From: an uncultured Marivita sp.
GTDB taxonomy: Bacteria > Pseudomonadota > Alphaproteobacteria > Rhodobacterales > Rhodobacteraceae
NCBI GenBank assembly: GCA_947503115.1
Contig: CANNCS010000012.1
Location: 1-54,237, forward strand
Length of the DNA: 54,237 bases
Direction: 5' to 3'
Positions 37,818 to 43,455 of this stretch are shown one piece after another. The translations under genes were made by a program, and so were the position numbers. Position 1 is the first letter of the stretch. Each line of letters begins with the position of its first letter. A model generated the notes under the pieces. The model did not search any database, was not told the DNA's origin, and saw only the letters and a program-made list of their open reading frames with translations.

Positions 37818-38477
37818 TTAACCGGCGGGCGGGACTCTTTCCCCAAAGAGAGCAGACCCTACACGAATATGTGTCGCGCCAAATGCGATGGCCTGTTCGA
37901 AGTCGTCGCTCATTCCCATGGATAATTGGTTCAGGCCATTGCGTTCCGCGAGCTTGCGCAGCAGCGCGAAATGTAGCGACGGGGTTTCGTCAACCGGCGG
38001 GATACACATGAGGCCTTGCACCGGCAGGTCAAGATCACGACATTCCTTGATAAAAGCGTCTGTGTCTGCCGGAGCGATCCCGGCTTTTTGCGGCTCTTCT
38101 CCGGTATTCACCTGAATAAACAGCTGCGGACACTGGCCCATTTCCTGTGCAAGACGGGCAAAGGTTGTCGCCAGTTTCGGGCGGTCGAGAGTGTGGATCG
38201 CGTCAAAAAGTTCAAAGGCCTGACGGGCCTTGTTGCTTTGCAGCGGACCAATCAGATGCAGATCAATCCCGTCAAAGGTTTTTCGGAAGTCCGGCCATTT
38301 TCCAGCTGCTTCCTGAACACGGTTTTCGCCAAAGCTGCGTTGGCCTTCTTGCAGAACAGCTTCGACCCGTTCGTTCGGTTGAACCTTTGACACTGCGATC
38401 AGAGTGATGTCTGAGGAATCGCGGTCGGCGTCCTTGGCTGCTTTGGCGATGCGCGCGGTGATGTCGTTCAATCCCAT
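37818..38477 (-). CDS. YggS family pyridoxal phosphate homeostasis protein
   Basis: A 219-residue alanine-racemase-like TIM-barrel protein. The PLP lysine is K31 in LIAVSKVQP, followed by the family stretch FGENRVQEAAGKW and the C-terminal GMSDDFEQAI. YggS/PLPBP binds PLP and controls its cellular level without a catalytic partner domain. The ATG at 38477 has GGGGAG seven bases upstream. Its first 10 bases overlap the 3' end of the sulfotransferase gene. Confidence 0.92.
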   Translation of the reverse strand: MGLNDITARIAKAAKDADRDSSDITLIAVSKVQPNERVEAVLQEGQRSFGENRVQEAAGKWPDFRKTFDGIDLHLIGPLQSNKARQAFELFDAIHTLDRPKLATTFARLAQEMGQCPQLFIQVNTGEEPQKAGIAPADTDAFIKECRDLDLPVQGLMCIPPVDETPSLHFALLRKLAERNGLNQLSMGMSDDFEQAIAFGATHIRVGSALFGERVPPAG

Positions 38478-39937
38478 GGTGTATCTCCCCAAGCGTCAAT
38501 GAAGGGTTTCAGCTCGGTCTCATAGCGACGCCAAGCAGCGGCAGAGCTTTTGTAGATTGGTTGGCGGACCTGATGCAGGCTGAGTGTTTTTACGGTGCCG
38601 CTTTTTTTGTGGAAGTTAAGGCACTCGTCTTCCCAATCAAGCCCGGCCGCGGCAATCAACCGTTTGGACTGGGTTTCAGGGTCGTCCACGAGGTCTTCAT
38701 ACCGGATCTCGACGAAGCGATCGGGAAGGGTCTCGCGCCAATGACGAACGATTTCGCGGAAAGATTTAATCACATCGGCAATCGATGCGAGATCGTTTGC
38801 ATAGCGATGTGTTCCCGCGTTGAAGTGATTTTTGTAGATCGACAATGCAATGTCACGTGGGTCGCGGTGGACCACGATAAAGCGCGCGTTGGGAAGAGAG
38901 GCGTGCAGTAATCCATAGATCAGGAAGGCCATGATCGACTTGTCGGTCAGATATGGCGTTGCAGACTTGGCGAAGGGCTGGATCGCGGTTGTCAGCTGTT
39001 GGGCGAAGTCATGTAGTTTGCCTTGCGGCTCTTGTGACAGGAGACGCATCTCGTGGCTTTTGCCGAAGAGCTCGTACGCGGTCCGTAGTCCGACCGCCAT
39101 TTCGCCGCCTGCATGGACCTGGCTGTGGCTGGCGATGATCTGTTCAACAAGTGTCGTGCCTGAGCGAGGAAGCCCGGTGACAAAGATCAGGCCCGGTGTG
39201 GTGCCCTTGGCCTCTGAAACGGGATTGAGGCCTGTCTGGGCCGCCAGAACGCCGGAATACTCGGTTTTGCGCCCGGTCGCATCGTCCGGCCAGAGATCGG
39301 CCTGCGCCTTGTTTGCGCGGTGGAGGTGACCAAAAACCTTGTCGAAGTTTTTGGTGTCTTCCATTGCCTTCGCGAGTGCAAAGTTGATGTGCATTCGCCC
39401 TTGGACCGACAGCTTTGGGTGGTTTGCCAGCCGACGCATTGCGCCAATCATTGGATCATTGGGTTGGATGCGGATCGTTGTCGCCAACATGCGGTAAAGC
39501 TCTGCATCATGGGGATGTTTTTTTTGCAGCTTGCGCAGCATTTTTTCGGATTCGTCGAACTGTCCGGCTGTCTGTAGATAGAGGGCTTTTTCCGCCTGTG
39601 GTTTGATGGCCTTCGGATCAAGCGCGATCATCTGGTCCAGCAGAGACAAGACAATGTCATGGTGGTCGGCTGCAGTATGCGCAGCGATTGCTTCGGTCAG
39701 GATGGCGGGTTCGGAGCCGCGCAGTTCTAAAGCACGATCAATCGCACGTAAGCGTTTTTCCTGATCTCCAAGGCGCGCGGCCATGCGGGCGCGTTGATAG
39801 TGAATTTCGGGCAGGTTGGGGGCTTGTAGAGCGAGGCCGTCCAGTAGCCCAGCGGCTTGTACAACATCACCCTGACGGGCGAGAGTCAGCGCTTTGTCGT
39901 AAGTGGTTTTGACAGCCTGGAGCGGGTTGGTGTGCAT
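38468..39937 (-). CDS. TPR-containing sulfotransferase
   Basis: A 489-residue protein. The N-terminal half (about 1-210) contains tetratricopeptide-like helices, and the C-terminal half is a Sulfotransfer_3 domain with the PAPS 5'-phosphosulfate loop TGLPRSGTT (254-262) and the 3'-phosphate loop VVHRDPRDIALSIYKNHF. It transfers sulfate from PAPS to an unknown acceptor. TPR-sulfotransferases are frequent in marine alphaproteobacteria and are often linked to surface polysaccharide or lipid modification. Cytoplasmic. Confidence 0.9.
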   Translation of the reverse strand: MHTNPLQAVKTTYDKALTLARQGDVVQAAGLLDGLALQAPNLPEIHYQRARMAARLGDQEKRLRAIDRALELRGSEPAILTEAIAAHTAADHHDIVLSLLDQMIALDPKAIKPQAEKALYLQTAGQFDESEKMLRKLQKKHPHDAELYRMLATTIRIQPNDPMIGAMRRLANHPKLSVQGRMHINFALAKAMEDTKNFDKVFGHLHRANKAQADLWPDDATGRKTEYSGVLAAQTGLNPVSEAKGTTPGLIFVTGLPRSGTTLVEQIIASHSQVHAGGEMAVGLRTAYELFGKSHEMRLLSQEPQGKLHDFAQQLTTAIQPFAKSATPYLTDKSIMAFLIYGLLHASLPNARFIVVHRDPRDIALSIYKNHFNAGTHRYANDLASIADVIKSFREIVRHWRETLPDRFVEIRYEDLVDDPETQSKRLIAAAGLDWEDECLNFHKKSGTVKTLSLHQVRQPIYKSSAAAWRRYETELKPFIDAWGDTPWD

Positions 39938-39975
39938 CGGTGCCCTTGCCTTTTGCTCCTAGCTACTTGGGTGCC

Positions 39976-40010
39976 GCACAAAAGAAAAGAGCGGGCAATG
40001 CCCGCTCTTT
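39976..40010 (-). terminator. Intrinsic terminator downstream of porin copy A
   Basis: Perfect 11-base stem AAAGAGCGGGC/GCCCGCTCTTT with loop ATT on the minus strand, followed by TCTTTTGTG. The flanking GCACAAAAGAAAAG is shared with the terminator of porin copy B, so the two porins carry related 3' ends. Confidence 0.85.
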
Positions 40011-40036
40011 CCCTAACCAAATCTGGTTATGAGCTA

Positions 40037-40954
40037 TTAGAAGCTCATCGACAGACCGAGCGAGTAGCTGTCCGACTCTACGTCGTTGCCAAAGTCGCTG
40101 TTGCCGTAGCCGAGGTGTGCAGCAAGACCGCCACCCAGGTCGTATGTTGCGGCCAGACCGAAGCCGGAGCAATCGCCACAGCCGAGGGACCAATCGGTGT
40201 ACTCACCGTAGTTCACGCCGATGGACAGTGCGTTCATGGAGTAGCCAACGCCAACTGCCATGTGCGTACCTTCGTCGGACTGACCTTCGATGTCTGCCTG
40301 AGTGTAGTTGATCGCTGCGGAGAAGCCGCCACCGAACTTGGCGTCGAGGCTTACACCAACGAGGTCAGCAACGTCTTCCTGGGTCTGGTAACCAAGGCCG
40401 ATGCCGATCGCTGCGCCACCGAGGTCGGTGGAGTAACGCAGGCCGAGACCCCAAACCGGGTCAGCTGCGCCTGTGTCGTCGATTTCTGCGGACAGACCGG
40501 CTGTGAAGCCAGCTGTGGAGTAGGAAACGCGAGCGATCTGACCGTCGAATGTACCGTCGAGGCCGGAGTTGCCGTTGTAGCCAGCGTGTGCTGTTTCGTC
40601 ATCCGCGATGGAACCACCTGCGAGAGCAACTTCCTGCAGAGCTGCGTCAAACGCACCGTCTGTGTCGCCCATGTCGAGGCGCAGGTTGCCGTAAGCGAGG
40701 AAGTATGTTTCGCCGCCCTGAGTGGTGTTGCCGAAAGCACCGTTTTCGTCGAGGTCGACTTTGGCGCCGAAGGACAGACCACCGTCGGATTCACCGGTCA
40801 TGGAGAATGTGACGTCGATGTCGGTGTGCCACTGGTCGGTTGCATAAGCGTCGCCGCCGATGATGCCGATTTCAGCATAACCAGTGATTGCTACGTCTGC
40901 CGCTGCGATGCCAGCGGTTGCAACCAGCGCGGTGGAAGCAAGAAGACTATTTGG
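40037..40954 (-). pseudogene. Porin copy A, 5' end lost at an insertion junction
   Basis: An open frame of 305 codons encodes an outer-membrane porin that aligns along its whole length with copy B at 41750-42670: signal peptide remnant SLLASTALVATAGIAAADVA, SGYAEIGIIGG-like start, many alternating beta strands and the C-terminal aromatic SLGLSMSF. Homology stops abruptly at about 40946. In place of MKTLLL the frame reads N-P-stop, with the TAA at 40955-40957. No ATG, GTG or TTG exists before the internal Met of MTGESDGG, which would lack the signal peptide. The body carries no frameshift, so the loss is recent or the copy is kept by gene conversion. Confidence 0.8.
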
Positions 40955-41079
40955 TTAGAACATGGTTTTTGGTTCGACTGTTGCTGCCAGTCGTTTCGCA
41001 GATTGCATCGTTGTCACATTCAGCATCGTGCCCGTGCTTATCCAATTGTAGCTTTTGGATAATCATTTCGGAGCAAGCT

Positions 41080-41665
41080 ATGATACCCTTCTTCAATCGC
41101 AACAAGAACGCACAAGACCAGCACAGTCGAACAAGTGAAGCGCTCACACTAAGTGTGTTCTTCGATGATCATTATTTTCCCCACGCTCAAGCCAGCAAGC
41201 GTGCACCAGATTTGGATTGGCATGTTTTCAACAAGCACATGAGACCCAGTTTGGGACGCTATCTGATTGTTGATCTCAAAAACCCAGTGTTGGATGTTTG
41301 GAAGCGTGAGCAAACTTTAACTGGATACCAGAAAGCAACCATCAACAAGCACATTCATTTAATGAACCGCATGTTGAATTTAGCACGACACTGGGGATTT
41401 ATCCCGCAACATGATCCACAGCAGCAGAACCTCAGATGCTTGCAGCTTGGTGATCATCGCCAGCGTTTTTTAACCGAAGCTGAGATTGATCGCTTGCTCA
41501 CGCACTGAACTTGCATTGCACAAACAATTGCAACGTGAGCTGCGTCACCGAGCTTGGTTAGCGCAGCATCTGCCCAACACCAAGCAACAGCGTAAGTCAC
41601 AGCGTCGTGTGTTGATGATTCGTTCTGCGTTAGCACTCAAGCTCCAACGCTGTGTCGATCACTGA
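41080..41665 (+). pseudogene. Tyrosine recombinase (phage-type integrase) remnant
   Basis: From an ATG at 41080 with GGAG six bases upstream, 142 residues form a SAM-like core-binding domain: DLDWHVFNKHMRPSLGRYLI, then TINKHIHLMNRMLNLARHWG, and the catalytic-domain entry RFLTEAEIDRLL, ending in TGA at 41508. In the next frame, 41507-41665, translation gives ELALHKQLQRELRHRAWL and then HLPNTKQQRKSQRRVL and SALALKL, which resemble the later integrase segments (ELALLTG-, LPNTKNGKSRRVPLS-, ALALL). Thus the catalytic domain is frameshifted, internally deleted and lacks the R-HxxR-Y residues. Non-functional as it stands. Confidence 0.65.
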
Positions 41666-41666
41666 T

Positions 41667-41689
41667 CTTACTTCAAACTTTGAAGTAAG
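41667..41689. repeat. Perfect 11-base inverted repeat after the recombinase remnant
   Basis: CTTACTTCAAA, one central C, TTTGAAGTAAG. It starts one base after the TGA of the second-frame remnant and ends where homology to the porin 3' region (GCACAAAAGAAAAG) begins. It could be a terminator stem without a T-run or a boundary structure of the insert. Confidence 0.6.
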
Positions 41690-41724
41690 CACAAAAGAAA
41701 AGGGTGAGCACTGAGCCCACCCTT
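41690..41724 (-). terminator. Intrinsic terminator of porin copy B
   Basis: Minus strand: AAGGGTG-GGC...GC-CACCCTT stem with one internal mismatch, followed by TTCTTTTGTGC. Related in flanking sequence to the porin A terminator at 39976-40010. Confidence 0.75.
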
Positions 41725-41749
41725 AACCAAGTAGCAGTTCGATTAGCTA

Positions 41750-42670
41750 TTAGAAGCTCATCGACAGACCCAGCGAGTAGTCATCGCTGTCAACGCCGTT
41801 CACATCGCTTGTGCCGAAGCCTGCGTGTGCTGCAAGACCTCCACCCAAGTCGTATGTTGCAGCGAAGCCGAAGCCAGACTTTTCGCTACCGGCAACGCCA
41901 GCAACGTCGTTGTACTCACCATAGTTCAGGCCCAGCGAGATAGCATTCATGCTGTATCCAATGCCAATGCCCATGTGTGTCTGGTTCTCAAGTCCAGCAG
42001 CAGCATAGTCCAATTCGCTGAAGTTGACACCAACACTAAAGCCATTCTCCATCGCAGCCTTTGCGCTGATACCGATCAAATCACCAGTGTCTTCCTGCGT
42101 CTGGTAGCCGACGCCAACGGTCACCGATGCGCCGCCCATGTCAGAGCTGTACGCAGCACCCAAACCCCAAACCGGGCTCATAGCACCAGTATCGTCGATT
42201 TCTGCCGACAAGCCAGCAGTGAAGCCTGCTGCAGAGTAAGACACACGAGCGATCTGCCCGTCAAAGGTACCGTCCAAGCCGCTGTTGCCGTTGTAGCCAG
42301 CGTGTGCTGTTTCGTTGTCGTTGATCGACGCACCCGCAAGCGCAACTTCTTGCATTGCAGCATCATAGGCACCGTCTGTGTCGCCCATGTCCAAGCGCAG
42401 ACCGCCGTACGACAGGAAGTAGGTTTCACCACCCTGTGTAGTGTTGCCGAATGCACCATTTTCATCCAAGTCAACAGCTGCACCGAACGCCAAACCACCG
42501 TCGCTTTCGCCGGTCATTTTGAATGTGACGTCAATATCAGTGTGGAACTGACTGTCTACGTTATCACCGCCGATGATGCCGATTTCAGCGTAACCGGAGA
42601 TTGCGACGTCTGCTGCTGCGATGCCAGCAGTTGCGACCAGCGCTGTGGAAGCAAGAAGAAGAGTTTTCAT
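41750..42670 (-). CDS. Outer-membrane porin, copy B (intact)
   Basis: A 306-residue porin precursor. The signal peptide is MKTLLLASTALVATAGIAAA (residues 1-20), followed by about 16 predicted amphipathic strands with Asp/Gly-rich turns and a C-terminal SLGLSMSF ending in Phe as required for BAM recognition. The ATG at 42670 follows GAGGG. It matches the general porin type of Rhodobacterales, forming water-filled channels for small hydrophilic solutes. The sequence is closely similar to the truncated copy A downstream, but with more AT-rich synonymous choices. The 5' leader holds a small hairpin (CCGGA-CCA-TCCGG, 42706-42718). Confidence 0.9.
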   Translation of the reverse strand: MKTLLLASTALVATAGIAAADVAISGYAEIGIIGGDNVDSQFHTDIDVTFKMTGESDGGLAFGAAVDLDENGAFGNTTQGGETYFLSYGGLRLDMGDTDGAYDAAMQEVALAGASINDNETAHAGYNGNSGLDGTFDGQIARVSYSAAGFTAGLSAEIDDTGAMSPVWGLGAAYSSDMGGASVTVGVGYQTQEDTGDLIGISAKAAMENGFSVGVNFSELDYAAAGLENQTHMGIGIGYSMNAISLGLNYGEYNDVAGVAGSEKSGFGFAATYDLGGGLAAHAGFGTSDVNGVDSDDYSLGLSMSF

Positions 42671-42731
42671 TTTTTCCCTCATGTGTTCGTAAGGCACGTA
42701 CCAAACCGGATGGTCCGGATTAGCTGCAACC

Positions 42732-42945: not shown

Positions 42946-43455
42946 ATGGACCTTACACGTTTCAGGACCGGTTTTGGCGTTGCTCTTGTAGCGGTGTCTG
43001 TGTCGGGATGCGGCTTTTTCGGAGGCTCATCTGACCGTGATCCTGTCGAGACACGCCCCGCGAATGACATTATGGACGAAATCCTTGACGATAGTCGTCC
43101 GAACCGCGCGCAGTCGTCGCTTTTTGATTTTCTGCGTATTCGCGATGACGCAGGGCAGATCGGTGCCGTTAATAAATACATTTGGAATGCAGCGCTTGAG
43201 ACGCTGGATTTCCTGCCGGTTGAATCGGTTGATCCGTTTACTGGTGTCATCACAACCGGATACGGCACGCCCCCCGGTGGCGGCAGAGCATACCGCGCGA
43301 CGATTCTCGTGAATGATCCGGCATTGGATGCGCGGTCGTTGAACGTGGCTTTGATGACGCGTTCTGGCCCTGCCAGCGGTGCCACCGTCCGGGCCGTTGA
43401 AGATGCCATCCTGACGCGGGCGCGCCAATTGCGTCAGCAAGACAGCCGCTTCTAA
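42946..43455 (+). CDS. DUF3576 family lipoprotein
   Basis: A 169-residue precursor with signal sequence and lipobox VSGC (Cys about residue 22), so likely an outer-membrane lipoprotein. The mature part includes NDIMDEILDDSRPN and YIWNAALETLDFLPVESVDP, features of the DUF3576 family of alphaproteobacteria, whose function is unknown. The ATG at 42946 is preferred over 42889 because the shorter form starts just before the signal peptide; GAGGG lies nine bases upstream. It is immediately upstream of a convergent glycosyltransferase gene, not part of the leuS operon. Confidence 0.85.
   Translation: MDLTRFRTGFGVALVAVSVSGCGFFGGSSDRDPVETRPANDIMDEILDDSRPNRAQSSLFDFLRIRDDAGQIGAVNKYIWNAALETLDFLPVESVDPFTGVITTGYGTPPGGGRAYRATILVNDPALDARSLNVALMTRSGPASGATVRAVEDAILTRARQLRQQDSRF

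Follow-up and report, generated by a model that had tools for sequence, protein, structure and literature searches.

The locus described here raises the question of why the remains of an integrase gene should lie between two closely related porin genes, one of which lacks its start. It was found in a 54,237 bp stretch of DNA from an uncultured Marivita sp. of the Rhodobacteraceae (hereafter the window). The two porin genes are in tandem on the minus strand, their products are 74% identical, and both belong to Porin_4 (Pfam; E 1.2e-40 for the left-hand porin body at 40037–40945 and E 3.5e-44 for the right-hand body at 41753–42659). The DNA between them is AT-rich, as an initial annotation of the sequence had stated, with a GC content of 0.44–0.50 against about 0.50–0.62 around it. 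The right-hand gene (41753–42670) has a normal start, MKTLLLASTALVATAG, which lies in a segment that we call the host head (42660–42690, minus strand), comprising the ribosome site GAGGGA, the ATG and the first porin codons, upstream of which is the conserved host leader. The left-hand gene has the same signal-peptide codons as the right-hand one from LLAST onwards and no start, and reading back from LLASTALV leads to an in-frame stop (40955–40957) three codons upstream. We call porin copies 'headless' when the host leader and the start are both missing; in the window, as in locus L060, any start is blocked by a stop. The native left-hand porin is followed by a hairpin at 39976–40010, the counterpart of a terminator-like hairpin of the right-hand porin at 41700–41724 (minus strand; four such sites were found and 1.9 expected). 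To the left, near the native porin tail, is a gene at 38468–39937 (minus strand) that on sequence impression is TPR/sulfotransferase-like, and to the right, near the porin head, is a DUF3576-like lipoprotein gene (42946–43455, plus strand).

The key to the arrangement is a core of 15 bases, GTGGAAGCAAGAAGA (plus strand), common to three places: the signal-peptide codons of the left-hand porin at 40932–40946 (attL; minus strand), the right-hand porin at 42645–42659 (attR; minus strand), and the empty site in the relative G405 (locus L061). The two copies in the window share these 15 bases and then show silent differences, and they are the only two copies of the core in this genome. Apart from the insert itself, a search of the same genome with it matched a single stretch, 45 bases at the second core. 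L061 4400–5449 aligns with window positions 39897–40946 at 90.4% identity and its next bases continue into the window at 42660, the head matching L061 across the junction; alignment with close relatives has in this way yielded the empty site, both junctions and the core. Because GTGGAAGCAAGAAGA is present at both ends and at the empty site, we delimit the element core to core as 40947–42659, including the right-hand porin body. In its present form it is a 1713-bp deletion derivative. The insert had been thought to end at 41690 with a 23-base inverted repeat, and a perfect repeat is there (41667–41689), but the element continues to 42659. The neighbouring porin was likewise said to have had its start removed; the left-hand porin does lack one, although the start itself was kept and today belongs to the right-hand porin.

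Within the element, an open reading frame from 41080 (41080–41508, plus strand) encodes residues 1–140 of a 318-residue tyrosine recombinase and matches a PHROG integrase family (E 2e-7), which bears out the N-terminal part reported earlier; the stub has no match to PF00589. There is no frameshifted catalytic part of the kind that had been described. The catalytic domain is absent, and the segment at 41501–41664 (plus strand) comes from the far end of the element, as the 3′ part of a different small ORF (57 residues in M. cryptomonadis L003); it is 94% identical in amino acids to residues 4–57 of its L003 and L060 counterparts. Between 41500 and 41501 lies a deletion scar, at which 2865 bases corresponding to L003 5421–8285, the whole catalytic domain included, have been lost. 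The full-length integrase of L059 matches PF00589 (E 5.7e-36), and R164, K189, H258, R261, H284 and Y293 (L059 numbering), the catalytic R, K, HxxR, H and Y, are present in the 21 alignment rows other than the window; in the window stub all of them are absent. Since the integrase has no catalytic domain, the host is probably locked on the acquired porin. We note a second relative of the integrase in the same genome (C180, 3270–3932; L092, L245), which is 42% identical with a short N-terminus and matches PF00589 (E 4.7e-32). No porin was found near it on its 5.2-kb contig, and it could be a source of recombinase acting in trans or could be unrelated.

The 23-base repeat (a hairpin between the small ORF and the convergent porin) was considered in two other roles. 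As the terminal repeat of a transposon it was rejected, the element ends being the cores; it is perfect only in the window and L060 (two copies), the hairpin of L059 is altered, and L058 does not retain it. Against a terminator, no T-run follows the repeat.

Longer copies of the element occupy the same site in three relatives, with 4.8–5.8 kb between the cores and a full-length integrase. A search of species genomes returned four loci. Three of them have the integrase at the same porin junction, namely those of M. cryptomonadis (L003, 99% identity) and of two genome bins, one from Marivita (L005, 81%) and one from the Rhodobacteraceae (L004, 72%); the remaining locus belongs to a Desulfobacca bin (31%). 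The two pieces of the element that remain in the window are close to the L003 sequence (545 of 552 bases identical for 40947–41499, and 181 of 189 for the second piece), and the flanking porins match it at 783 of 904 and 737 of 906 bases. The longer elements carry the integrase, small genes that include one for a DUF6626 protein (E 4e-23 in L059), and a second small recombinase (PF00589, E 5.5e-26 in L003) followed by the 57-residue ORF. The element of G404 has an extra ORF of ~235–249 residues (L058 5734–6483) with no family match above the cut-off. M. cryptomonadis has two copies of the 23-base palindrome (L003 8456–8478 and 8659–8681) and a remnant of another element end before the porin, possibly a sign of repeated element replacement.

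Seventeen genomes of the genus were compared for the state of the site, one of which, G398, was left unclassed. Eleven have one porin (E 1e-20 or better), headed and with a core that is free of an insert; in ten of these both the sulfotransferase-like and the DUF3576-like gene adjoin it, and in the other (G401) the contig starts at the porin tail. Five, including the window, have a headless porin at the junction, and in one of them (G407) the contig ends 113 bases past the core. An integrase of at least 78% identity is present in four of the 17, none of them among those with a single headed porin. Five genomes break at the identical base, and in 15 other genera the break is no more than about three codons away. 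Judged by these alignments, the break in the window is neither a chance event nor a contig join. Two outcomes that would have undone the initial annotation are unlikely on the same grounds: a contig join, given the same core break in three relatives with integrase and in G407, and an insert that is native intergenic DNA in all relatives, given the eleven insert-free genomes.

The two porins in the window have different histories. A tree of 20 porins (G398 left out) and pairwise comparisons place the headless porin of the window 95% identical in amino acids to the single headed porin of G405, which is the sister of the window in the flanking-gene tree (support 1.000). A separate clade, with support 1.000, unites the four element porins and stands on a long branch; nearest to it are the headless porins of G397 and G407 (0.910). 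The description of a decayed recombinase inserted between tandem porins was thus right as far as it went; by the tree, the second porin arrived with the element, and the two are not an old tandem pair struck by an insertion. The insertion point itself lies in signal-peptide codons at which recombination has recurred. Between the window and M. cryptomonadis dS is 0.05 for the integrase stub and 1.60 for the neighbouring sulfotransferase-like gene, so transfer of the element from species to species was recent. Its porins are more diverged than the integrase (dS 0.74 vs 0.05), and these unequal ages require some further exchange, for which site-specific recombination alone is insufficient. A third class of porin, with about 50% identity to the others, is found under the same head in G406, G401 and G396 (L070, L071, L072), which have no close integrase and do not form a clade in the flank tree (some supports are low), so the body under the head seems to have been replaced more than once. 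Values of dN/dS are 0.10–0.25 for headless pairs and 0.12–0.15 for headed pairs, the two highest (0.22 and 0.25) being between headless copies; headless porins are accordingly not decaying freely, or not yet.

The explanation that we consider highly probable, from sequence comparison, is that the insert is a decayed site-specific porin-swapping element. The integrase would use the signal-peptide-coding DNA of the porin as its attachment core, and a circle carrying a porin body and its integrase would recombine with the core in a host porin gene. This would fuse the leader, ribosome site, start and first codons of the host in frame to the porin body of the element and leave the host's own body headless on the integrase side; reversal would restore the old porin. 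In other genera with headed and headless cores in inverted orientation, inversion of the intervening DNA would swap the body behind the head. Since the core is signal-peptide-coding DNA, each product would be in frame and keep its export signal, with little change in head or signal peptide. Comparison between genomes shows an empty site, a common core, longer copies at the same site, a displaced native porin and a foreign second porin; cutting by this integrase, circle formation, reversible switching in a living population and selection for porin change are steps that we infer.

The pairing of integrase and porin extends well beyond Marivita. Among the matches listed for 394 family genomes (with up to five candidates scored per genome), 17 genomes outside the genus have near full-length integrases 42–57% identical to that of the element, at 18 loci; a 99-residue fragment in G104 (52% identity) was left out of the counts. 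A porin adjoins the integrase at all 18 loci, which represent 17 other genera and include a second locus in G289. Near weaker relatives of the integrase no porin adjoins (0 of 12), in a control whose porin model had loci of the first set as training data. Of the 17 genomes, 15 have one headed porin and another without ribosome site or start, the resemblance between them beginning within about three codons of the same place. The two exceptions are G129, where the contig begins at the core, and G144, in which both porins are headed. The two G144 porins (L081 5946 and 11083) have near-identical ribosome sites and starts, and the second is divergent from the integrase. An in-frame ATG occurs at the core or on the integrase side in eight genomes (G397, G407, G369, G411, G174, G384, G117 and G030), and weak expression of those headless copies is therefore possible. 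Where the integrase lies behind the porin tail, the porin is headed in G030, G259, G129 and G174 and headless in G154, G148, G384 and G024, and both states are thus seen next to the integrase.

There are further observations on individual loci. Two other genera have elements (L076 7643–10756 and L082 9353–13451) whose second recombinase is of the same kind, at 57% and 62% identity, and which include a DUF6626-like gene. In L076 the integrase has a headless porin next to it, and the 20-kb stretch yielded no second one. In a search beyond the family, four of 385 genomes of the class pass E 1e-60, the window's own genome included, and no porin was found within the 2.5–3.8 kb fetched around the integrases of G452, G612 and G704.

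The core is more strongly conserved than the remainder of the genes. Over 19 headless–headed pairs (G142, with only 50 codons, and G144 are left out), 138 of 156 core codons are identical, with 95 expected from the rest of the gene, and none of about 20,000 simulations reached this value; the pairs are not all independent, as they include four from Marivita and two from G289. Eight of the 19 give p < 0.05 singly, the window not among them, and G045 and G289 show weak core identity. Nine of the 394 genomes contain a 20-base form of the core, eight of which have the integrase (nine of the 17 integrase genomes have no match), an enrichment that is partly by construction since the pattern was written from integrase loci. 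In all six genomes with two hits to this form both copies are the same variant. Core-to-core distances in other genera range from about 6 kb to hundreds of kb, the inverted pairs of G174 and G148 being about 6–8 kb apart. Eleven pairs in other genera share a contig, nine of them in inverted orientation (one-sided p 0.033); the direct ones are in G117, which has an element of the Marivita type, and in G144, and the four Marivita pairs are also direct.

The genus of G369, represented by 13 genomes, has two arrangements downstream of the core. Nine of the genomes have the integrase beside a headless porin in which the first core codon is ATC, and the nine headed copies that were found begin the core with CTC; this split between integrase side and head side places the crossover inside the core. 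In G369, G409, G411, G412, G414 and G419 the order is DUF3576-like gene, head, porin and YggS-like gene, G409 and G414 having extra DNA before the last of these. The YggS-like gene of G413 and G418 instead follows the headless porin at the integrase; G413 has a different porin behind the head and then a different gene, and in G418 the contig ends in the headed porin. No YggS-like gene was found in the stretches fetched from G410 and G415. All of the DNA downstream of the core has changed partners, as is predicted for recombination between the core at the head and that at the integrase, the two arrangements being observed between species only. In G416, G417, G420 and G129 contigs stop no more than about 20 bases from the core, perhaps a sign of mixed arrangements. 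Comparison across the family shows both the pairing of integrase with porin in other genera and, in this one genus, the two arrangements.

A different way of swapping porin bodies would be homologous recombination at the conserved signal-peptide codons, with the integrase a passenger that lands in porins. The unequal ages of integrase and porin in the Marivita element need exchange beyond the integrase, and three genomes of the genus without a close integrase have the third porin class behind the same head, both as this explanation would have it. However, the common runs at the core, 8–73 bases, are short for homologous recombination, a passenger sits poorly with an integrase that adjoins a porin at every one of the 18 loci, the ATC/CTC split puts the crossover inside the core, and the same-contig pairs are inverted in nine of eleven cases. 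We regard it as unlikely to be the main explanation.

Equally, the integrase could be the remnant of a prophage or plasmid whose attachment site happens to be in a porin and which has no part in porin variation. The stub does match a PHROG integrase, and the longer elements carry accessory genes and a second recombinase. We nonetheless give this reading a low probability: among the matches listed, phage relatives are 28–29% and plasmid relatives 30–34% identical (three plasmid records in the 60–80% band are left out), identity is at most 36% in the best 80 viral contigs among the matches listed, no phage structural gene (Pfam) was found among seven element proteins scanned, and a porin body is inside all four genus elements for which the far end is seen. 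An old tandem duplication, one copy of which later lost its start to a deletion by an unrelated integrase element, would account for 74% identical porins in tandem with a terminator-like sequence in common, but is very improbable, as none of the 17 genus genomes was found to have two headed porins, the headless copy is nearly the same as the single porin of the sister genome while the other copy falls in the element clade, and the break recurs, at the identical base in the five genomes and at most about three codons away in the 15 other genera.

If the element does exchange porins, the parts of the protein that differ are of interest. Porins are abundant outer-membrane proteins and are known phage receptors in other bacteria. 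The predicted structure of the element porin of the window has 16 strands (mean pLDDT 74.5). Among the 20 porins mean pairwise identity is 0.94 in the signal part, 0.70 in the strands, 0.77 in the periplasmic turns and 0.45 in the outer loops when the long third loop, at 0.76, is set apart, the sides of the loops being assigned by convention. In this predicted structure, variation is greatest in the outer loops, where phages or predators would touch the protein. A porin-swapping element agrees with the earlier hunch of selection for recombination at a porin pair, with selection itself the conjectural part.

Some integrative elements are known to bring a replacement for the part of the target gene that they cut off, usually a short 3′ end that leaves the product unchanged. 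The porin element likewise would replace the cut part, and differs in replacing nearly the whole gene and yielding a different protein. The best analogue appears to be the switching of the vsa locus of M. pulmonis and the vpma locus of M. agalactiae. In the available part of PMC2268961, a lambda-type tyrosine recombinase (HvsR and Xer1, respectively) adjoins each locus, site-specific inversion joins a silent copy to a single expression site, and disruption of xer1 gives phase-locked cells. For vsa the expression site comprises the promoter, the ribosome site and 714 bases at the start of the coding region; for vpma it is the promoter (PMC2268961). The likeness, as far as that portion of the source goes, is in the recombinase beside the locus and in one headed copy with headless copies that have a common 5′ core. 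The mycoplasma genes, however, encode lipoproteins of wall-less bacteria, whereas those considered here encode outer-membrane porins of Rhodobacteraceae; here the core is in signal-peptide codons, the distance to silent copies can reach hundreds of kb, and one version travels from species to species together with its own porin.

DNA inversion also alters outer-membrane proteins in Bacteroides fragilis (PMC4747536, in the part available). The inversions described in that part are of promoters, in contrast to the exchange of whole mature porins under a fixed head that we propose here. A tyrosine integrase has reportedly been proposed for inversions of Thermococcales chromosomes. These are large and said not to arise from homologous recombination, and the available part of PMC5495485 states no exchange of surface proteins. 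Among open-licence papers, within the matches listed, we found none on porin exchange by a recombinase in Rhodobacteraceae.

Taken over the family, the comparisons suggest that Rhodobacteraceae probably have a horizontally spreading system in which a dedicated tyrosine recombinase uses signal-peptide-coding DNA as its site. Insertion, excision or inversion, in some cases spanning hundreds of kilobases, would exchange whole mature outer-membrane barrels behind a single promoter. Such surface variation would be reversible and might help cells to evade phages or grazers. If this is true, a recombinase dedicated to whole porins helps to explain porin diversity under a constant head in marine bacteria, and the surface-protein switch is also mobile between species. 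The model predicts hidden porin variants in clonal populations and would bear on phage resistance.
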